Shown: positions 3,967 through 31,867 of the stretch, in pieces
Layout of the letters: each line of letters opens with the position of its first letter
Numbering within the stretch: position 1 is the first letter of the stretch
DNA from: a virus
Length of the DNA: 35,780 nt
Strand: one strand, 5' to 3'
IMG/VR virus record: IMGVR_UViG_3300037316_000030
Location: 1 to 35,780 of that record
Made by a program: the position numbers and the translations under genes
The notes under the pieces: generated by a model
Told to the model about the DNA's origin: nothing
What the model saw: the letters and a program-made list of their open reading frames with translations, nothing else
Database searches by the model: none

Positions 3967-4155
3967 TCAGACTTCCTCACTAGGAACGTACCGCTTTTCA
4001 ATTCGGTACTGCCGGTAGATCAAGTTGGGGTCGTAGTCCCATTGCTGGATCCACTCCTGAGCCAACTCATAGGTATCACACTCGACGCACGCCGTGTCTT
4101 GGTCGGTGCGAAGCTGTGTACACGAGACAACAAGAAACTTCTCTACTGCTCTCAT
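3967..4155 (-). CDS. Hypothetical protein, 62 residues
   Basis: A short reading frame sits between the ATPase and DUF669 genes. ATG 4155-4153 overlaps the ATPase stop as TGATG; a GTG one codon earlier (4158-4156) is the alternative. The protein has cysteines at about residues 12, 23 and 26, the last two as a CxxC-like pair (CVEC), then aromatic residues and WIQQWDYDP. One CxxC pair is too little to claim a zinc site. No family recognised. It resembles small phage proteins carrying reformatted sensory or display data (for example CDTYELAQEWI), but I cannot assign a function. Confidence 0.65.
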   Translation of the reverse strand: MRAVEKFLVVSCTQLRTDQDTACVECDTYELAQEWIQQWDYDPNLIYRQYRIEKRYVPSEEV

Positions 4156-4988
4156 CACTTCTCTGCTTTCTTCGGCGCCGGCCGACGCCGAGGTTTGGTA
4201 GCTACCTGCTTCTGGGTGGCTGCAGCGTACTCAGCCTGCACCCTCTCCCAGATTGTGTCGAAGCCGTTCTCCTTCGGGATGACAACGAACGGCTTCAGAG
4301 ATTCGATCCTACTCTTGGTGGAGCGGCTGTTGCACTCGTCGGTGAAGAGCACCCTACACCCTTCGTACGCACCGAGCGCCTCGTCCTCTTCGTCTACCTG
4401 GTCAACGATGAGCATCTCACCAATGACCGAGGCGAAGTCACACACGACCTTGTCCATGCCCGGAGAGACATTGGGTCCCGTCTGACCGTTAGTCGTGCGT
4501 TGACCAGACAGGATGATGATGTGTACACCCAGCCGGCGCAGCGCAACAAGAAACCGCTGCATCTGTCGCTGGTTGCCGTAGAAGTCGCCCTGCTCAGGAA
4601 CGAACTGCATGCGGATAGAGACGGTCTTGCCTTGCGCTTCTTTCGTACTGACTGCGTCCTCCGTCATCTCGTCCATGAGTAGGAACACCAACGAGTCGAG
4701 GTTGTCGACCACCAGGGTCTCGTAGTCGCCTTCCTCAATCAGATCCTTGAGTACGAAGTACAATGCCTCCAGATCCTTGTAGCCCTCAGGCTCGAACCGC
4801 ATCGGCTTCTTGCCCTTGAGCCCGAGTGTGAGCATCCCTCGGTTGGTGTCGAGGAAGAAGGGCTTTGGGAACGACTCAGCGAGCGTGGTCTTGCCACGCC
4901 CAAACTCGCCGTAGATGACCATGATGAGCGGTTCGTCGTTGACGTCTAGCTCAGCCGGTTCGTGGGATAGCTCACGATTTGCAACCAT
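4155..4988 (-). CDS. Sak4-like RecA-fold ATPase (phage nucleotide-binding protein)
   Basis: The 277-residue protein is a compact RecA-fold ATPase of the AAA_24 / phage nucleotide-binding type. It has a Walker A loop at residues 27-34 (GEFGRGKT) and a Walker B strand ending at D95 (ETLVVDN). A Lys/Arg/Pro-rich tail follows. Members in other phages are called Sak4 and promote single-strand annealing or strand exchange; here that is inferred from family and context. ATG 4988-4986 has GGAGGA upstream and overlaps the WhiB-fusion stop as TGATG. Neighbours are a Cas4-like nuclease, a DUF669 protein and PolA, the usual recombination company of Sak4. The second half is less conserved and I recognise no further domain. 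Confidence 0.82.
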   Translation of the reverse strand: MVANRELSHEPAELDVNDEPLIMVIYGEFGRGKTTLAESFPKPFFLDTNRGMLTLGLKGKKPMRFEPEGYKDLEALYFVLKDLIEEGDYETLVVDNLDSLVFLLMDEMTEDAVSTKEAQGKTVSIRMQFVPEQGDFYGNQRQMQRFLVALRRLGVHIIILSGQRTTNGQTGPNVSPGMDKVVCDFASVIGEMLIVDQVDEEDEALGAYEGCRVLFTDECNSRSTKSRIESLKPFVVIPKENGFDTIWERVQAEYAAATQKQVATKPRRRPAPKKAEK

Positions 4989-5710
4989 CAGTCCTCCGTT
5001 GATTCTTCTGCTGCCGATACCATAGCCGACCACTGCGATACCGACCAGAGGTGCGGTGGCTTCCAGTGGCGCAGCTCGAGCGTAGTTGCCATGAGATTGT
5101 GGTGTAGTCCATCACGCTCAATCGTTCCGTCGTACTCCAGAGCATCGAAGACACGACCCACGTCCCCTTTACGCACTCCGAACTGCTTGGCGAGCTTGGG
5201 CGGCGATGGCAGGTGAAAGGAGAACCTGGCCGATTCCTCCAGTAGGAACTCGATGATTCGAGAGGCCAATAAAGTGTGACGGTCCTGCCACTCATCGCCA
5301 GCATCGGGTATAGCTTGCACCCGGATGAACTTCCCGCACCCATTGCAGATCAGGATTCCGGTGCGCTGTTGAATGGGGTCCCATGTAGTGCCGCAGTCAG
5401 GGCACGTAGCGTGATCCCGCTTGTACACAGAGTACCGTTGGGCCGGCGTGAGACCAGCACGCAGACCGAATCGATGTCGCATGGGAACGGTTCCCTCTTG
5501 AGCGAGTGCACCGTCCAGACATCCCACTCGGGCGGAACAAGTATCACAAAACCGTGCAGCGACAATACGGTGAGGATTTCCTTCGAGCGGCTCCTGACCA
5601 TTTCGGAGACTGCCAGTGTAGAAGAGTTCGGTGTCCGAACCTGTGCACGCTTCGATCCCCATCTCACGGCACGATCCCAGCTTGTCGAAGGTCATGCCAC
5701 ACGTCGCCAT
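4988..5710 (-). CDS. WhiB-like protein fused to zinc ribbon and winged helix
   Basis: About 240 residues. The N-terminal third has the WhiB pattern C-x32-C-x2-C-x5-C (C22, C55, C58, C64), with D-x-E-L-F-Y after the first cysteine and a Gly-rich turn (GLRAGLTPAQR) where WhiB proteins have GVWGG. WhiB proteins bind a 4Fe-4S cluster and act on the main sigma factor. Next comes a zinc ribbon with C103, C106, C122 and C125. Residues about 150-210 resemble a GntR-type winged helix (SPPKLAKQFGVRKGDVGRVFDALEYDG). Typical WhiB proteins are 80-140 residues, so this is a fusion. The start is uncertain: ATG 5710 has GAAGA upstream; ATG 5695 and 5662 are alternatives. It overlaps the preceding gene by 47 bases if 5710 is right. 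Confidence 0.8.
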   Translation of the reverse strand: MATCGMTFDKLGSCREMGIEACTGSDTELFYTGSLRNGQEPLEGNPHRIVAARFCDTCSARVGCLDGALAQEGTVPMRHRFGLRAGLTPAQRYSVYKRDHATCPDCGTTWDPIQQRTGILICNGCGKFIRVQAIPDAGDEWQDRHTLLASRIIEFLLEESARFSFHLPSPPKLAKQFGVRKGDVGRVFDALEYDGTIERDGLHHNLMATTLELRHWKPPHLWSVSQWSAMVSAAEESTED

Positions 5711-5966
5711 TTTCTTCGGCCTTCTTACGTTCGTACGGTACAAGCACGCTGTCGATAAAGTCGGCACGACAACCTTCGAGTGCGCCGAGGCATTCCGCCA
5801 GTAGGGCGTAGTCAACGCACCAGTGCTGATCTACACGACGTGCGGTGTGTTCGAGGATGTAGTCCTGCAGCACCGCTGTGAGCTGGAACGTGAGCTGCCC
5901 CACGTTCTCAGCCGGTACCACTGTGCTCGGTCGACACGCTCTATCAGTCACTCGTACGTGAGGCAT
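5664..5966 (-). CDS. Hypothetical protein, 100 residues
   Basis: The 100-residue protein starts at ATG 5966-5964 with AGAGGA about 9 bases upstream. The middle is helical with Cys, Trp and acidic residues; the C-terminal part (VPYERKKAEENGDVWHDLRQ) is highly charged. I recognise no domain. It overlaps the end of the small zinc-ribbon gene by 23 bases and the start region of the WhiB fusion by up to 47 bases, in a different frame. That nesting suggests coordinated expression with the WhiB fusion, but no functional link can be read from the sequence. Confidence 0.65.
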   Translation of the reverse strand: MPHVRVTDRACRPSTVVPAENVGQLTFQLTAVLQDYILEHTARRVDQHWCVDYALLAECLGALEGCRADFIDSVLVPYERKKAEENGDVWHDLRQAGIVP

Positions 5967-6105
5967 CGTCTAGTTCCTCTTCACATCGGAAACAGAAGCC
6001 AAGCTCCCGCTCGTGCGGCCAGCGGCACGGTGCGCCGCAGTTGATGCAATACTCGAACGGTATCAGGTCGCCCCGTTCGTCGAGACCTCCGGGACCCTCA
6101 GGCAT
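5944..6105 (-). CDS. Small zinc-ribbon protein, 53 residues
   Basis: This frame from ATG 6105-6103 to TGA 5946-5944 encodes about 53 residues with CxxC at C20/C23 (YCINCG), another cysteine at C27, and a second pair C38/C41 (FCFRCEEEL). This is a typical short zinc ribbon with an acidic tail. The ATG directly follows the TAA of the Cas4-like gene (TAAATG), and GAGGTGG in that gene's end can act as its ribosome binding site. It sits just upstream of the WhiB fusion, which carries its own zinc ribbon. Function is unknown; small phage zinc ribbons often bind nucleic acid or host transcription proteins. Confidence 0.7.
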   Translation of the reverse strand: MPEGPGGLDERGDLIPFEYCINCGAPCRWPHERELGFCFRCEEELDDASRTSD

Positions 6106-9785: not shown

Positions 9786-12700
9786 TTACAACAGCTTGCT
9801 CTTGTCGAAACCCTTGCCTGCACCGACCAGGATCTTCGACGGTTTGGGCGGCTTCTCGACAGTGGGCTTGAATGCAGCGAGTGCGCTCTTCACCCCATGT
9901 GTCTTGGTCCCGTGTCCCTTCGGTGCCTTGATGAGCGTCTCCTTGAGCACTGCCTGGCTGTGTTCACCTTTCGGGTGAAGTCCTTTGACACCACCACGGG
10001 GTGCGGCGCCGCTGCCATGACCGGCGAGGTGCTGGTGCATGGTGAGCTTGCCTCCGCCCTTCATGCGCAGTCCGCCCTTCACGCCGCCCTTGCCGGTCGA
10101 GAGCTTCTTTGCTTTACCGAGCGCCATCTTGAGTTTCGTGCCGTAGCTTGACTTCCGTCCCCGACTGCCACCTTGGCGTGGATGCAGCTCGTGGTAGGCG
10201 AGCGTGCCATAGCGGGGGTGTACGGTAGCGGGCTGGTTCTCTCGAGCCAGTGCCTGGCGCACCTGCGATGCCGGTGTCTGTGCGGGCAGAACAAACTTCT
10301 CCAATGCGGACTGGATGCCTCCCTTCGCCGTGGCGAGCGAGACGGCCGGGATGCCTGCCAGGAGCTGCTGCAGGTCATGTGCAGGTGACGTGCCCTGCTG
10401 TTCGGTACCGTACGGACCGACGGTGGGAAAGTTGTCCTTGCTCGACGTCGGCGCTTGATAGGCGTTTCGGAGCAGGATGTTGAGGAACGGGTTGACAGCG
10501 TTGACGATGCCCTGCGGTGTTACGAGCGACGCAGCGTCGGAGAACGGGTTGAGGAACTTGGGGTTAACGAGCCCGAGGCCAGGTACCTGCAGTAGGCCGG
10601 CGTAGGCGGACGGGAGCTGCGTGCCGTTGCCGTACTCATTAGCCATCATCTCTTGGTTAACTTGGCCGAGTACCAGGCCGATGGACGCAGCAAGCGGGTG
10701 GTCATACCCGATGGACGCCATGATCTTGAGGATGCCCTTTTGGAATGTGTAGAAGGGAACCACGCTCTTGACGATGTTGCGCTCGAACGGGCTCATGTCG
10801 TTGAAGTCGATGAGTGCCTTCTGTGACTTCTCCAGTGCGGTGATGACGTCGTCGCCGGTGCGTACGCTGTGCAGGTATACGGCAACACGACCGATGTCGT
10901 CGATGGCTGCGGCCGGTGCGGAGATCATGTTGGTAACGCCACGGAGTGCGACCTTCACCTTGCCTGGACCGGCCGCTTCAGCTATGGCCTGCTTGATACC
11001 TTCGATGCCCCTGGCGGCAGGGATGGCTGAACGCTCGGTGCCGATCTCGCCACGAAGCCCACCGGCGACAGCCCCTGCCTTGCCCTCGAAGCTACGGTCG
11101 CCGGCACCGAGAGACTGCATGAGGATGTTGCGGCCGGGATCGATCTCGCCGTTACGGAACGACTCGAAAGCGTCGCTCCAGTCACGCAAGCTGACGCCTG
11201 TCTTGGCTGCGAGGATAACGTGCCCGAGGATATGGTTGACGAAGAACGTCGGGTGGAACGAGAGCGTCAGCATCTTCCACGGCTGCGTGACGTTCTGTAG
11301 ACCACGCAGGACCATACTGTCGGGTGCGGCCTTCTCGTACTGCTTGAGTACGTGCACGATCGCACTGGGGATCTGCATGGTCGGATGGCCGAGACCACGG
11401 GCGACCACATCACCAAGGGCGTTGCGGGTGCCTGCGAGCAGGTACTGCCGTTCGGGGTCCCACGCCTGATGTCCGGGCAGGAAGCGGTCACCTTCGTTGT
11501 AGGGCTTGGCGTAGGTGTCCTCGAGGAACTTGGCGAGTGCATTGGTGTGCATCTCGTGCGTCGCCTCGACGATGCCTGCCTGCAGTGCTGATAGGCTCCG
11601 GGTCCGAGTGGCAGCCTGGATGCGTGCGTTGCGTGTCCCGGCCACTTCTGTCTTCCCGAGGTCACGACCTTGCTTGCCAAGCGACACCGAGCTGTAGACC
11701 AGGTGCTGGACTTCGCTGTCAGTGAACGAGCGTACGTGGACTGGGTCGAAGCCCTGCTGTGCGGCGATGCGGAGCACGGTATCCCAGCCCTCTTGGATAT
11801 GCCCGTCGACCAACGCCTTCGCCAGCTCGGGATTGTGCAGCGCCTCCTGGTGCAGCGACTTGATGCTGTCCCAGATCGGTTTGAAGTGGGCGGACACCTG
11901 AGCCATAGCTGGGTTGGCAAGCTCACGTCCGACGCTATCGATCGAGCGATCAATGCCAGCGCCGAGCTTGTTCCGCATCAGCTCGGCCGGGAGTGTGTGC
12001 TGCTCGAACGATTGCTTCAGCTTGTCCAAGCTCTTCTGGATAGCGATCTTGCGAGCACCGAGTTCGGCAGCTTTCGCCGCTGCCTGCTCGCTGTCACGAA
12101 CTGCATATGCGCTGTTGACCGCACGCTGCTCCAGCTCATATTTCGACCCGGTGACGTCGAGCGCCTGCCTTACTACTTGGGGTCCGGTCTTTGGGACAGC
12201 TAGCGGAGCTTTCGGTCCGAGCGCACCTCGTGCCTCGACGGGCAGGTTCTTCTGCTGCGCACCGATAGCCTTGGCAGAGCCGGGTGTCTCGCCTTTGAGT
12301 TGTTCCTCGCTCGCCTCGACGGGCAGGCGTTCAGCGCTGAGGCGTTCCCGTGCAGCCTTGTCGGCAGCGTGTACGGCGTCCAGCTCGACGCTGATCTTCG
12401 CCAGCTCGTCTCGCATGGCGGCCATCTCGGCTGCTGCTTCGAGACGCACCCTGGGGATCGTGCTGTTCTCCATGCGCTCCACGACACGGAGCCGCTGGGC
12501 GACCGAGGCCATGATCTTCTGAGACTTGGGGCTGAGGTCGGGGAAGTTCTGGGAGATGTGGTCGAGGCCCTTGCCGCTCGTCTCACGCAGGATGTTGGTG
12601 CGTTCCTCGGCTGCGTCCCGAAGCCCGCTGATGGAGTTGTCGATGATGGTACCTAGCTCAGTGCGTGAGCCGTTGGTGTTGTTCAACCATTCGTCTGGGA

Positions 12701-14804
12701 TGCGCAGCTCGCTGCGTTCGCCGGCACGTACGAGGGTCTTGCGCATGTCCTCGATAGCGGTTGGTGTGGCGTGCCGTGCGACGGCGTCCTCGACGGCGGA
12801 GACGTGTTCGAGGTGCGCCATCAGCTCGTCACCCATGAGACCGTCCGCCATCTTGGCGGTGACTACCTTGGTGGTACCGTCGGGCATACGGATCTCACGA
12901 CCGACGAGGTACTTAGCGGCAGCGGCCTTGGGTGCGGCGAAAGCGTCGCTGTTCTTGATCTCACGTCGGTTGATGTCCTGCATGCGTAGACGTTCACGCA
13001 GCACCTGACCGACACCTCGAGCCTGAGTCAGGAACCGGTCGGTGTGGGAGAGCGCACGCACGACAGGGTCGGGCAGGTGCGAGACGGCATCCGCCGCCCA
13101 CTGCTTGATCGGGGCGTGCGCAGCGTGCTCGAGGGCGTCCTGCATCGGACCCTTCGGCGAGCGTGTGAGTCCGAGCGTGTTGGGCTGCTCGTCGGTGTGG
13201 GCCTGTGGACGCTGGAGCGCCTCGGCTACATCCTTCAGGCCCTCGGGTGGTGTGACCTCATCGTCGTGGCGGATGAGCGCATCTTTGATCTCTTCACCAG
13301 GGTGCACGTCGATGTTGACGGGCTCCTTGCCTGGAATGTCGGTGCGCTCGATCTTGTCGTCGGTGGTCAGCTCGTTCGGGAGATGGGCGACCTCGTCGGC
13401 GATACCCCGGTCGCCGGCTGCGACGGCAGCCTCGTGGCCGGCCTGGTAAATCTCAGGGGAGACTCGGGTGTGGTAGACGGTGCCACCCTCACCGGCGTGA
13501 CCTTGCGCCTCGGTGAGGCTCTTCGACCACTGCGGGCCGACGGTCGGAGATCCGGCCTGCTCGCCGTGGTAAAGGTCGACGGCGGTGCCGGGCGTGGCGC
13601 CTTCCAGAGCGAGCCGGTGTAGCTCGCTGGCGGCAGCGACGGTCTTGGCCGCAGCGGCGATATCCTGCGGGTCGCCGTTCTGCGCCGCTTCGGCGGAGCC
13701 CTCCAGGGCGTCCTTCAGTCCGTTCGGCTGGGGGCCGTGACCAAGATTCTCCGAGACGGCCCGTTCCAGTGCCTCCTTCAGGCCACCGTTCCCAGGCCCG
13801 ACTGCCCCGGTCGGTTGTGCCACGGAGGGGGTCGGAGGCTCCTGGGGCACTACAGGGGCCTCTGCGGCCACGCCTCCTGGGGTCGCTGTCTGGGCCGCTT
13901 CGGCGGCAGCGTCGGCCTCGTTCGCCGCCGTGGTGGTCCCCTCGAGCGAGGCGGAGGCGGCACGTCCGAGTGGGCGGATGATCTGGTCGATGAGGGAGCT
14001 GTAGGGGTGGGCGACCATGTCGATCTTGTTGAGCAGTGCACCCTTGGCCTGCGACGCCTCGGAGGTCCAGTCGACGCCCTTGTCCTCGGCTTTGGCGATG
14101 GCCTGACCGGCAGTCTGGAGCACGCTATCGGTGATGTTGGCCTTGGAGAAGGCTGCCTTGTCGCCATTGGCGAGATCGTGCGCTGCCTGAGCAGCCGTAG
14201 ACATCTCGTCGGCGCTGTAGCCGGCGTCGGCAGCCCGCCCTGCTGCCATGGCCGCTGTCCCACCGGCGTCACCAAGCAGTCCCTCGACCCCGCCTGCGGC
14301 ACCGGCGATGTTGCCGACGTTCTGCACAATCGGCGTCAGCAGCCCTGAGTGCTCGTACTGTTGCCCGAAGCTCTGCGGTGTGTACTGCTGACCGCCCAGG
14401 AGGTTACCGACGTCGGAGCGCAGGCCCTGCGTCGAGGGTCCGTAGGGATCGAGGACGTTGATGGCGGTACCGGCGAACGACGAGAGAATGCCCTTACCCA
14501 TCTCAGCGGCAGGGGCGAGGTGCCCGTGCAGTGCCTGGTCAGCGACATTCTCGATACCGGTGAGCGAGCCCGTTAGGGAACCGACAAGCTTGCCGATACC
14601 GAGCTGCGGAAGATGCAGTCCAAAGAGGGTGCCGCCACCATTGGGGGCCTTGGCCTTCTGTTCGGTTACTTGCTGAAGCTGCCCGAGCGTCTGGTTGGCG
14701 ATGGCGGGCGTGATGCCTGCCGCCTCTGCATACTGGACAGGCGTGTATACCGCCGGTCCTGTTTGCGGCGTGGGCGGCGTGGTCAGCCCGTAAGTACCGG
14801 CCAT
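9786..14804 (-). CDS. 1672-residue multidomain ejection-type virion protein
   Basis: This is the largest gene and probably an internal virion protein injected with the DNA. Residues about 1-330 are low-complexity Ala/Gly/Thr sequence. Residues about 395-485 have the pattern of a phage ADP-ribosyltransferase-like fold (VDLYHGEQAG, then GPQWSKSLTEAQGHA and GGTVYHTRVS). Residues about 690-1000 look helical. Residues about 1180-1360 (PTFFVNHILGHV, later DFNDMSPFERN and VVPFYTFQKGI) resemble large polyvalent-protein-associated segments of podoviral ejection proteins. The last ~95 residues are strongly basic with many Gly, Lys and His, suggesting DNA contact. Order after adaptor, nozzle and two smaller ejection-like genes supports the role. 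ATG 14804 has GGGG about 11 bases upstream. The ART call is tentative. Confidence 0.7.
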   Translation of the reverse strand: MAGTYGLTTPPTPQTGPAVYTPVQYAEAAGITPAIANQTLGQLQQVTEQKAKAPNGGGTLFGLHLPQLGIGKLVGSLTGSLTGIENVADQALHGHLAPAAEMGKGILSSFAGTAINVLDPYGPSTQGLRSDVGNLLGGQQYTPQSFGQQYEHSGLLTPIVQNVGNIAGAAGGVEGLLGDAGGTAAMAAGRAADAGYSADEMSTAAQAAHDLANGDKAAFSKANITDSVLQTAGQAIAKAEDKGVDWTSEASQAKGALLNKIDMVAHPYSSLIDQIIRPLGRAASASLEGTTTAANEADAAAEAAQTATPGGVAAEAPVVPQEPPTPSVAQPTGAVGPGNGGLKEALERAVSENLGHGPQPNGLKDALEGSAEAAQNGDPQDIAAAAKTVAAASELHRLALEGATPGTAVDLYHGEQAGSPTVGPQWSKSLTEAQGHAGEGGTVYHTRVSPEIYQAGHEAAVAAGDRGIADEVAHLPNELTTDDKIERTDIPGKEPVNIDVHPGEEIKDALIRHDDEVTPPEGLKDVAEALQRPQAHTDEQPNTLGLTRSPKGPMQDALEHAAHAPIKQWAADAVSHLPDPVVRALSHTDRFLTQARGVGQVLRERLRMQDINRREIKNSDAFAAPKAAAAKYLVGREIRMPDGTTKVVTAKMADGLMGDELMAHLEHVSAVEDAVARHATPTAIEDMRKTLVRAGERSELRIPDEWLNNTNGSRTELGTIIDNSISGLRDAAEERTNILRETSGKGLDHISQNFPDLSPKSQKIMASVAQRLRVVERMENSTIPRVRLEAAAEMAAMRDELAKISVELDAVHAADKAARERLSAERLPVEASEEQLKGETPGSAKAIGAQQKNLPVEARGALGPKAPLAVPKTGPQVVRQALDVTGSKYELEQRAVNSAYAVRDSEQAAAKAAELGARKIAIQKSLDKLKQSFEQHTLPAELMRNKLGAGIDRSIDSVGRELANPAMAQVSAHFKPIWDSIKSLHQEALHNPELAKALVDGHIQEGWDTVLRIAAQQGFDPVHVRSFTDSEVQHLVYSSVSLGKQGRDLGKTEVAGTRNARIQAATRTRSLSALQAGIVEATHEMHTNALAKFLEDTYAKPYNEGDRFLPGHQAWDPERQYLLAGTRNALGDVVARGLGHPTMQIPSAIVHVLKQYEKAAPDSMVLRGLQNVTQPWKMLTLSFHPTFFVNHILGHVILAAKTGVSLRDWSDAFESFRNGEIDPGRNILMQSLGAGDRSFEGKAGAVAGGLRGEIGTERSAIPAARGIEGIKQAIAEAAGPGKVKVALRGVTNMISAPAAAIDDIGRVAVYLHSVRTGDDVITALEKSQKALIDFNDMSPFERNIVKSVVPFYTFQKGILKIMASIGYDHPLAASIGLVLGQVNQEMMANEYGNGTQLPSAYAGLLQVPGLGLVNPKFLNPFSDAASLVTPQGIVNAVNPFLNILLRNAYQAPTSSKDNFPTVGPYGTEQQGTSPAHDLQQLLAGIPAVSLATAKGGIQSALEKFVLPAQTPASQVRQALARENQPATVHPRYGTLAYHELHPRQGGSRGRKSSYGTKLKMALGKAKKLSTGKGGVKGGLRMKGGGKLTMHQHLAGHGSGAAPRGGVKGLHPKGEHSQAVLKETLIKAPKGHGTKTHGVKSALAAFKPTVEKPPKPSKILVGAGKGFDKSKLL

Positions 14805-28487: not shown

Positions 28488-29609
28488 CTAGGGTACTTCA
28501 ACCCAGGGTGCGAAGGTTTGCGGAAATGGGTCGGTCAGCAGTCGCTCGAACCAGTCGTCGTAACTCTGCCCTACTCGCCCTGCACCAGTGGTGGGGTCGT
28601 AGCAGTAGCGGTCGATGGCCTGGGCCGCAATCTCTTCGGGGCTGTCGTACTCGTCGTATTCAACTGCGTCGCAGAACTCGGCCACTGACTTACAACGCCA
28701 CCCATTGACTCCATTGATGATGGTTTCCGAGAAGACTGCCCAGTCCGGCGAGATGACCGGTACACCTCGAACGAGAGCTTCAGCGTGCACCCGACCGAAC
28801 GGTTCCTCGTAGAGCGACGGCATGATGACAGCACGAGCATCACAGATAAGACGATTCTTCGCCTCACCCAGAACGATACCGAGGTGGTGAGCGTCGGGCG
28901 CATCGTCCGTCGGTCCCTGCCCAACGACCACGAGATCCATACCCGTGCGCCGAGCAACCTCGGCTGCGATCCCCAGACCTTTCCCGTCGACCTTGCGGCC
29001 GATGAAGAGTAGGTAATCGGCCCGGTCTTCATTTGCAATCTCCAGTGGTTGCGCCACAATGTTCGGCGTGACGTTGTCGTAGAACTGCGGCCACCGGCGG
29101 TGCCACCCGTCGGTGTAGTGCCGGTGTGCGTACGTCGGGTAGTTGGCATAGCGGGTGTAGCGAGCGTCGGCTGGGAAGCCAACGATGAACTCCACGCAGC
29201 GCAGTCGCACGGTGTTGCAGAAGTCGACAAGCGTGCGGTGTGCCTGCCCAACTGTCGTACAGACAATGTCGTCGGGTTCGAAGCGTTTAGCTACCTCAGT
29301 GATGCACGCCTCGTTGAATGCTGCCCACTCAGGGGAGTCGTGGTGAAAGTCCGTGTCGGCGCTGCCGTAACCGAACCCTGCCGGCCCACCAAGGCCACGT
29401 CCGCCGAACCACTGCTCCTGCTGAGCGAGCGTGACACACGCAACATGTTCGGTGACTGCGACGTCGTTCAGCTCGCCCGAGTACAGCGTGGTCTCATGAC
29501 CACGAAGCGTCATGCACCGTGCGAACTCAGAGACGTCGGTGGTAAAACAGTCGTACTCGTAGTCCTTGGTCGTGTTCGTATGGGGTACCGCAACCACATG
29601 AAGCCTCAT
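28488..29609 (-). CDS. GT4-family glycosyltransferase
   Basis: The 373-residue protein has the GT-B layout of GT4 enzymes. The N-terminal domain starts VVAVPHTNTTKDYEYDCFT with RGHET soon after. The C-terminal domain begins with YLLFIGRKVDGKGLGIAAEVA and carries the E-x7-E nucleotide-sugar signature (EPFGRVHAE) followed by LVRGVPVI. It would transfer a sugar from a nucleotide donor with retention. Acceptor unknown: virion proteins, host surface glycans or modified DNA are all possible. No hydroxymethylation gene for DNA is visible. The neighbour upstream is a tail fibre rich in Gly-Thr/Gly-Ser repeats, an attractive acceptor. ATG 29609 has GGGAAG upstream; the earlier GTG/ATG start at 29657 would overlap the fibre gene. 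Confidence 0.87.
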   Translation of the reverse strand: MRLHVVAVPHTNTTKDYEYDCFTTDVSEFARCMTLRGHETTLYSGELNDVAVTEHVACVTLAQQEQWFGGRGLGGPAGFGYGSADTDFHHDSPEWAAFNEACITEVAKRFEPDDIVCTTVGQAHRTLVDFCNTVRLRCVEFIVGFPADARYTRYANYPTYAHRHYTDGWHRRWPQFYDNVTPNIVAQPLEIANEDRADYLLFIGRKVDGKGLGIAAEVARRTGMDLVVVGQGPTDDAPDAHHLGIVLGEAKNRLICDARAVIMPSLYEEPFGRVHAEALVRGVPVISPDWAVFSETIINGVNGWRCKSVAEFCDAVEYDEYDSPEEIAAQAIDRYCYDPTTGAGRVGQSYDDWFERLLTDPFPQTFAPWVEVP

Positions 29610-29650
29610 GACCACTTCCCAACGTAGTGTAGTCGAGTCATGCTGGCAGA

Positions 29651-31855
29651 CTACCAAACAATGATGAAGGCCGCACCAACACCACCCGTGCCACCTGCGC
29701 CAGAAGACGTTGCACCATCCGTTATCGTGGCACCACCTCCACCCGCCCCACCGCCTGGTGCACCGCCGTTCCCACCATGGCCGCCGCCGGTCCCAGGTGT
29801 AGAACCACCGCCAGCTCCGCCGCCGCCACCTGCCCCGCCAGTCATACTGCTTGTTTTGGTAGTAGTGCCAGACGATCCGCCAGCCGTGCCTGAGTTACCT
29901 TGTGTAACCCCAGCAGCACCGCCGGCGATGTTGGGGCTGTTCGTAGCGTTGTTACCGCCGCCACCGCCGCCACCGCCTGGTGCACCGCCACCAAATCCTG
30001 AAGTAGTCACTGCATCGCCGCCACCGCCGCCGCCTGGTGATGCATCAAGCAAGACGTTCCCGCCCTGCGTACCGGTGGTAGCGCCCACGGCGCTAGTACC
30101 GCCCGTACCACCTATTCCTGCCCCTTGAATAGCCAGCCCGGTAGCGGTACCTCTGAATGCCCCATCGTCAATCGAGTAATAGCTCACACCTCCAGCGGCT
30201 GCAGCGCCAGCCGATATGATCGCACCACCGTTACCGCCAACCCCACCATTAGCCTCTAAAAGAACCGAAGCCCCTGTTGTTTCAAAAAGGGTTTGCCCAC
30301 CGTTACCGCCGCTGCCGCCTGCGTGAGACGATGTTTCAGCACTGCCAGGAATACCGCCCGCACCTACGACAACTTGAAGAGTGAGGCCGGCGAGATCGTC
30401 AGAGCGGAACGTCATACTAGAGTACTGCCCACCTGCGCCGCCGCCACCGCCGCCGGGAGTAGAGGCGCCGTTAGCACCGCCGCCACCACCACCGCCTCCG
30501 CCTATGAGTACAACACGTACCCAGTGTCCGGCCGCCGGCACAGTGAACGATGTAGTACTTGCAGTTGTGTAGGCGGTTATCGTGACTGCGCCCGCACCGC
30601 CAGTACCACCACTACCGCCAGTACCACCGCTGCCACCGGTGCCACCTGTTCCTCCAGTGACCCCTGGCCCGCCGGTCCCGCCCGAGCCGCCTGTTCCACC
30701 CGTACCGCCGCTGCCACCTGTGCCTCCACTGCCACCTGTTCCACCCACTCCGCCAACGCCGCCCGTTCCACCGCTTCCACCCGTACCACCGCTTCCGCCA
30801 GTCCCGCCAGTACCGCCGCTTCCGCCCGTGCCACCGCTTCCACCTGTTCCACCTGTGCCTCCAGTTCCAAGCTCGAACTTTCCGTCCGCAGCAACGTAAA
30901 CGTACACCTCGCCATCGGTTGGTGCGCCAGTCTTGAGTGGCACGCCGAGGAAGTTGTCGACACTCGTGTCGATGCTGTCACCAGGGACACAGACATTACC
31001 GTTGACCGGAACTTGTGGGCCGGGTAGCCCCGAGCTGAGCGACTTCCAATCTGAGAAGAACGCACTGTGTACACCGAGCTGCACCTTGGGAACACCAGCG
31101 GGGGGTGTGTTGCGGTCGTCGTAACAGTTGAATCCGTTGCAGTGTGTGAAGATCCCATCCGACACTGGGTGTGTACTTGGAGTGATCGTTGTTGGGAACG
31201 GAGTCCCTGTTCGTCCGTCGGCAGCTTGAGTTTCAGAGATGCGGTACCCGGTGTGAGTACCTAACCCACCGTCGTACACGTAATCCCAGCCGTCGAGGTA
31301 GCAACCAAAAATGTAAGTGTCACCTCCCTCGTTCACCAAGGAGAAGGTCTTGGAGTGGTCGACTACGGCTGCTTGTAGAAGCCAAATGTGCTCAAGTGTC
31401 AGCTCGCCAGTGTTCTGGAAGAAGAAGTAGCGGGTCTCGGAAAGCCCAACGTCGAAGTAGGATCCATACCCAGACTCGCATTGGAAAGCTGTAACTTCGG
31501 GACCGTCTCGGAACTGACACCCACGAAGCGTGGTGGCTGTGCCGTTGACAATGTAGCCGGCCAGGTAGACGTACCCGCTTGAGAACTGGATAACTGCGTT
31601 GTGGTGTGTAGTGATGATCGAGTTGATCAGCACGTCATCAGCGATACCGCTGAGAATGTAGTCGGCGGTCGCTGTCTCCCACGCCTGAGCGTCGGAGCAG
31701 GCCACGTAGACGATTGCCTTCGGAGGCGGCGGGGGAGGCGGGGGCGGAATCGCCTCCTGCACCGCTTGGAAGTTGCGCAGGATTTTGTTGTCGGCGGACG
31801 GAACGCCCGTTCCTACCGAGGGGTAGGGGATCGGCTTGGGCGGGGTGGCAGCCAT
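29651..31855 (-). CDS. Glycine-rich tail fibre / receptor-binding protein
   Basis: The 734-residue protein has four parts. The N-terminal anchor (about residues 1-40) ends in nine consecutive prolines. Residues about 45-330 are beta-rich, perhaps a beta-helix (SSGYVYLAGYIVNGTATTL and similar). About residues 330-425 are GGT/GGS repeats like collagen-type linkers. The C-terminal 300 residues are the glycine-rich domain seen at the tip of actinophage fibres (FTVPAAGHWVRVVLIGG, then long poly-Gly and a final GAAFIIVW). It probably recognises the host. ATG 31855-31853 has GGGAG upstream. It follows two beta-rich virion proteins and precedes the glycosyltransferase. Assignment as fibre rests on the C-terminal domain. 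Confidence 0.78.
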   Translation of the reverse strand: MAATPPKPIPYPSVGTGVPSADNKILRNFQAVQEAIPPPPPPPPPKAIVYVACSDAQAWETATADYILSGIADDVLINSIITTHHNAVIQFSSGYVYLAGYIVNGTATTLRGCQFRDGPEVTAFQCESGYGSYFDVGLSETRYFFFQNTGELTLEHIWLLQAAVVDHSKTFSLVNEGGDTYIFGCYLDGWDYVYDGGLGTHTGYRISETQAADGRTGTPFPTTITPSTHPVSDGIFTHCNGFNCYDDRNTPPAGVPKVQLGVHSAFFSDWKSLSSGLPGPQVPVNGNVCVPGDSIDTSVDNFLGVPLKTGAPTDGEVYVYVAADGKFELGTGGTGGTGGSGGTGGSGGTGGTGGSGGTGGSGGTGGVGGVGGTGGSGGTGGSGGTGGTGGSGGTGGPGVTGGTGGTGGSGGTGGSGGTGGAGAVTITAYTTASTTSFTVPAAGHWVRVVLIGGGGGGGGGANGASTPGGGGGGAGGQYSSMTFRSDDLAGLTLQVVVGAGGIPGSAETSSHAGGSGGNGGQTLFETTGASVLLEANGGVGGNGGAIISAGAAAAGGVSYYSIDDGAFRGTATGLAIQGAGIGGTGGTSAVGATTGTQGGNVLLDASPGGGGGGDAVTTSGFGGGAPGGGGGGGGNNATNSPNIAGGAAGVTQGNSGTAGGSSGTTTKTSSMTGGAGGGGGAGGGSTPGTGGGHGGNGGAPGGGAGGGGATITDGATSSGAGGTGGVGAAFIIVW
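30585..30875. repeat. GGT/GGS-coding triplet-type repeat in fibre gene
   Basis: About 290 bases of near-periodic 9-base units (plus-strand consensus like CCACCGCTACCGC) encode Gly-Gly-Thr, Gly-Gly-Ser and a few Gly-Gly-Val units. The third positions vary, so the repeat is conserved at the protein level and drifts in DNA. Such tracts can change length by slippage or recombination, which would alter fibre length. Confidence 0.8.
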
Positions 31856-31867
31856 CACTGCTCCCGT

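Follow-up and report, generated by a model that had tools for sequence, protein, structure and literature searches.

The window, by which we mean the whole stretch of viral DNA analysed here (a contig of 35,780 bases whose genes lie almost all on the minus strand), carries a gene whose 240-aa product, P0004, combines a divergent WhiB domain, a four-cysteine ribbon motif and a probable winged helix. With moderate confidence, we propose that P0004 is a three-module actinophage transcription regulator that acts through the host RNA polymerase.

Gene, operon and viral context

The gene occupies positions 4988..5710 on the minus strand, and its first codon, ATG1, has an AAGG 9 nt upstream. Its product contains ten cysteines (residues 4, 14, 22, 55, 58, 64, 103, 106, 122 and 125). 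The earlier note had left room for a true start downstream of C22. In-frame ATGs are found at residues 1, 6 and 17, each ahead of C22, and the next start codon is GTG62, so that this objection falls unless translation begins at GTG62. ATG17 (5660..5662, minus strand), an alternative start that retains all four WhiB cysteines, lies one base past the stop of the upstream neighbour, a DUF6899 (PF21840) gene (5664..5966, minus strand; Pfam E 1.2e-8), which overlaps the WhiB gene by 47 nt when the latter is counted from ATG1.

The reading frame of P0004 is established: it is open, with a family match, an intact set of four ribbon cysteines, an in-frame winged-helix signal and a TGATG at its 3' end. 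All this weighs against an artefact, in which an assembly error or a mis-called ORF would have given a wrong frame, start or C-terminal part. We hold such an error to be highly improbable, even with a low third-position GC (0.61 vs 0.73-0.80 in most neighbours) and a tail that has no relative in any collection searched.

The downstream neighbour is a Sak4-like ssDNA-annealing/AAA_24 gene (4155..4988, minus strand; PHROG 124, E 1.3e-28; AACGGAGGACTGATGG). The stop of the WhiB gene and the start of the Sak4-like gene overlap as TGATG, with a GGAGG just before, and genes for SSB, DNA polymerase A, a PDDEXK exonuclease and an SNF2 helicase adjoin the pair (Pfam, PHROG). By this overlap and GGAGG, the WhiB gene is placed inside a replication/recombination operon. 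A comparable neighbourhood surrounds whiB in cluster EK Microbacterium phages (PMC8612146). Co-translation with replication and recombination genes makes it most likely that P0004 would act early to middle in infection. P0004 might also be a DNA-handling protein of this operon, such as an initiator or loader accessory, whose ribbon and winged helix would work on replication DNA. The coupling to Sak4 and the surrounding SSB, polymerase, exonuclease and helicase genes fit such a role, but transcription is the main target of well-characterised WhiB proteins (PMC6282962) and an early-operon position is usual for phage regulators too; we consider a DNA-handling role quite unlikely.

Two further observations concern other genes of the record. 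The second gene upstream of WhiB, a 53-aa ORF (window 5944-6105, minus strand), encodes CINCGAPC...CFRC, a motif rich in Cys that resembles a ribbon. Elsewhere, a glycosyltransferase gene (PHROG 3408, E 5e-42; 28488-29657, minus strand) stands beside the gene of a collagen-like GGTGG-repeat protein (29651-31858, minus strand).

The host is likely an actinobacterium. The portal protein of the record has distant relatives (22-26% identity) in Cellulosimicrobium phage DS1, in a Manatee Spring podovirus and in Arthrobacter phages, and these relatives, together with the WhiB domain, uphold the actinophage origin assumed in the earlier note. Its remark that no phage RNA polymerase is visible also holds, in that neither a polymerase nor a sigma factor was recognised: PF00940 gave no match, in a search without positive control and in a record that is possibly a fragment, and sigma region 4 gave no match in the record with controls that worked. 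An RNA polymerase may nonetheless have escaped recognition, given this missing control, the possible fragment and a 1,672-aa protein encoded among the structural genes (9786-14804, minus strand) that has no Pfam or PHROG match. This protein may be an ejected virion protein; it may also be a divergent RNA polymerase. Intergenic gaps yielded no shared promoter motif, shuffles giving about as much, and scanning for promoters of sigma-70 type did not exceed the level of shuffles; the missing motif counts against the regulator that we propose.

A divergent WhiB domain with an Arg turn

To judge from its sequence, the WhiB domain (residues about 20-98; 5417..5653, minus strand) is real but divergent. 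The spacing of its candidate cluster ligands, C22-x32-C55-x2-C58-x5-C64, is exact, as had been read in the earlier note, and the four cysteines, which are invariant in an alignment of 20 sequences, probably hold a [4Fe-4S] cluster. The WhiB-type context withstood profile searches as well. PF02467 scored the domain alone at 24.5 bits, above its curated cut-off of 23.6, and the whole chain at 21.5 bits, just below it; in a search of the whole record, the match was again above cut-off (E 2.4e-6, 24.6 bits). PHROG WhiB families matched at E 1.3e-6 to 7e-4. A WhiB HMM built from 19 other WhiB sequences, P0004 being left out, gave 46.7 bits, whereas 5,000 shuffles reached 11.8 bits at best; P0004 was its sole clear match among the 398 ORFs of the window (E 9.8e-14). 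Finally, the P0004 model aligned with WhiB1, WhiB3 and WhiB structures at Z 6.2-6.9, and resembles WhiB1 and WhiB3 bound to sigma region 4.

WhiB1 contacts sigma region 4 by Trp3, Phe17, Phe18, Val59 and Trp60 (PMC7363131). Counted from the cysteines and the turn, the counterparts in P0004 are E16, F30, Y31, L83 and R84. Like WhiB1, WhiB3 and WhiB7 on sigma-A region 4, P0004 has the four-cysteine core and the turn, with F/Y and L, all hydrophobic, at three of five contact positions. It differs from them by E16 and R84 in place of Trp3 and Trp60, a 17-residue loop, an added ribbon and winged helix, and its length (240 aa vs about 80-140 in Wbl proteins of this type). The G[V/I]WGG turn with its sigma-contacting Trp is replaced by GLRAG (residues 82-86), for which reason we file P0004 as an Arg-turn WhiB-domain protein and not as a canonical Wbl. 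The turn and the 17-residue loop after C64 (residues 65-86; 5453..5518, minus strand) form an "Arg-turn, long-loop" signature. WhiB7 needs a Glu-Pro-Trp motif to bind SigA (PMC3905903), and none is present in the P0004 loop.

The change of two of the five WhiB1 contacts makes it uncertain whether P0004 binds the primary sigma factor. Both Trp losses would argue against a plain copy of the WhiB1/WhiB7 mode, and the F/Y/L positions for some hydrophobic docking. An alternative to our proposal builds on these losses (PMC7363131): the head would stay off sigma region 4, serving as an Fe-S module with a redox or structural task or binding another partner, and regulation would be left to the winged helix of P0004, which might for instance repress genes of the host or the phage. 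Repression is reported for the WhiB of phage TM4, whose target is host whiB2; overexpression of some phage WhiBs is toxic (PMC8612146, PMC13148394).

The association of turn and loop also bears on this alternative. Among 223 distinct WhiB cores from fetched loci, a 17-residue loop was found in 22 of 25 Arg-turn proteins, and a loop of 10-11 residues in 148 of 162 Trp-turn proteins, a correlation that may be inflated by the fetching of phage loci with seeds of both turn types. Clustering at 60% identity left 74 clusters, with 38 W and 1 R among short loops and 3 W and 19 R among long loops (Fisher p about 1e-11, only a guide since related sequences are counted as independent). The same split was seen in whole-genome Pfam searches of four actinobacteria, a check blind to turn type but small, in genomes reached through seed-found loci: the 46 proteins comprised 41 with Trp (loop 10-11) and 5 with Arg, four of these with a loop of 17. 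The coincidence of Arg turns with loops that are 6 residues longer favours a head without sigma docking. On the other side, the hydrophobic contact positions are kept by F30, Y31 and L83, and one family model still recognises Arg-turn WhiBs. We regard a head that does not dock on sigma as unlikely, though a real contender.

Arg-turn WhiB proteins occur in phages and in bacterial chromosomes. No description of an Arg-turn, long-loop WhiB type was found in the literature, nor are we aware of binding data on Arg-turn WhiBs. LeBron gp77, among the best phage-genome matches, also has an Arg turn (GIRAG). As annotated (L004 2435-2752), gp77 begins at a TTG that leaves out its initial WhiB cysteine; further upstream the frame stays open, through NWRKLADC, and offers other TTG codons. 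If it was the annotated form that was cloned, the report of gp77 as "not toxic" (PMC13148394) may thus refer to a truncated protein.

The ribbon and the probable winged helix

Behind the WhiB domain, the Cys4 ribbon motif (residues about 101-131; 5318..5410, minus strand) reads exactly C103-x2-C106-x15-C122-x2-C125. This cysteine order (CxxC-x10-20-CxxC) never appeared in 20,000 shuffles of the P0004 tail, and the four-cysteine ribbon of the earlier note stands; the ribbon would bind zinc. AlphaFold2 modelled short strands at 119-121 and 128-130, in keeping with the two CxxC knuckles on adjacent hairpins that mark a zinc ribbon. A TFIIB-ribbon Pfam match was weak (E 0.017-0.024), and phmmer searches of the PDB gave GATA-like matches (E 2.4e-5 with the whole chain, 0.07-0.5 with single stretches). 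Kinship with TFIIB- or GATA-type zinc domains was rejected, as these are short-motif matches only.

The third part is a probable winged helix, GntR/MarR/Crp-like (residues about 139-216; 5063..5296, minus strand; LPSPPKLAKQFGVRKGDVGRVFDALEYDGTIERDG). Three profiles fell on this one stretch, all below cut-off: MarR (E 0.011, 16.0 of 24.6 bits required), HTH_Crp_2 (E 0.031, 14.7 of 27 bits) and GntR (E 0.15, 12.2 of 27 bits). With such scores, we say that the tail would work like a winged helix and do not file it in these families. The AlphaFold2 model, which has effectively one sequence to draw on in this region (pLDDT 44-79), places helices at 139-162, 170-177 and 181-190 (pLDDT about 66-79) and renders the wing region helical, at pLDDT 44-56. 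It nevertheless matched winged helices with VIA Z of 6-8.7, and Foldseek retrieved the DNA-binding domain of PdhR, with 35% identity over 52 columns. MYST acetyltransferases topped the structure search and were read as generic winged helices. The winged-helix-like segment described earlier is thus backed by three families on one stretch and by the modelled helices, but not by any score above cut-off nor by a well modelled wing.

Tailed WhiB proteins and the proposed role of P0004

The earlier note had treated the three-part fusion as exceptional. This did not hold: WhiB-HTH, WhiB-zinc and WhiB-zinc-HTH proteins recur in actinophages, and a WhiB-ECF sigma fusion, WblP, has been published (PMC6282962). 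Using several seeds, we drew WhiB loci out of viral and genome collections and obtained 235 distinct cores, mostly from phages. Tails of at least 40 aa were found in 82 of them, and a zinc-like tail motif in 45. The exact combination of parts in P0004 appears to be new, and its building plan already known.

Several of these proteins can be set beside P0004. Guppsters phage encodes both a WhiB with two zinc fingers (gp58) and a WhiB with two HTHs (gp60). The latter (PHROG 472 + 664) has, as P0004 probably does, a WhiB core followed by DNA-binding HTH modules, but these are of HTH_38/resolvase type, and it has no ribbon, a short loop and a GVFGG turn. In Guppsters gp58 (PHROG 1333), Kevin1 gp47 (PHROG 8273) and Brevibacterium L031, a zinc motif comes directly after WhiB helix 4, like in P0004, and L031 and its phage relatives share the Arg turn and 17-residue loop; unlike P0004, the three have mostly treble-clef-like fingers and no winged helix. 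WblP of plasmid SCP1 also joins a WhiB domain to a built-in promoter-recognising part, an ECF sigma factor where P0004 has ribbon and probable winged helix (PMC6282962).

As to the same fusion elsewhere, the part order WhiB-zinc-HTH is found in L186, and in L219 and L088 as weaker candidates, and no relative of the P0004 tail was detected in the collections searched. L186 has two treble-clef-like fingers and a plain HTH-like end, and its tail cannot be aligned with that of P0004. L219 was tried as a second case of ribbon and winged helix; the model rendered its tail as helices, and the structure search bore mainly on the WhiB domain, leaving L219 a candidate only. IMG/VR single-protein scans with P0004, DNA polymerase and terminase returned no close relative, tblastn of the P0004 tail against phages gave noise only, and a search of 296 actinobacterial genomes, made without positive control, gave nothing at 1e-6.

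Two side observations were made on the gathered loci. One tail pattern recurs in phage WhiBs (L008, L023, L027, L144-L195) and is often duplicated; this pattern, CGTxxGYxRHxRxGExxCxxCRxA, looks like a zinc-binding add-on. Cellulosimicrobium phage DS1 contains an unannotated WhiB-domain ORF (GIWGGLDEDER; L005 13618-14223, plus strand), over which hypothetical proteins are annotated, one on the opposite strand.

In the regulator that we propose, the WhiB head with its probable [4Fe-4S] cluster would form the link to the transcription machinery of the host, perhaps to the RNA polymerase itself, or else act as a redox sensor. The ribbon comes straight after WhiB helix 4, a placement shared with the zinc fingers of other phage WhiBs, and the predicted C-terminal winged helix would read DNA. 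In this way P0004 could raise or lower the activity of phage promoters, or of certain host promoters, via the host RNA polymerase. It may likewise be the switch diverting host transcription that the earlier note conjectured. WhiB7 and WhiB3 make DNA contacts of their own on top of a sigma-bound core (PMC10245118), and in a 2018 review WhiB7/WblC, with its AT-hook, was the only Wbl with a recognised DNA-binding motif (PMC6282962).

More tentatively still, Arg-turn, long-loop WhiBs might be a functional subclass that relies on another partner instead of a Trp-mediated contact with sigma region 4, and P0004 a self-sufficient Fe-S transcription factor made of a redox-responsive head and a winged helix. 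If true, the phage would gain promoter choice without having to encode a sigma factor. Phage proteins, P0004 included, show that the WhiB core has repeatedly acquired zinc fingers and HTH domains, and tailed phage WhiBs are test cases of whether the WhiB head is merely a docking or redox module for any DNA reader. The Arg-turn type offers a second test, having lost the sigma-interface Trp and yet being widespread in phages and chromosomes.
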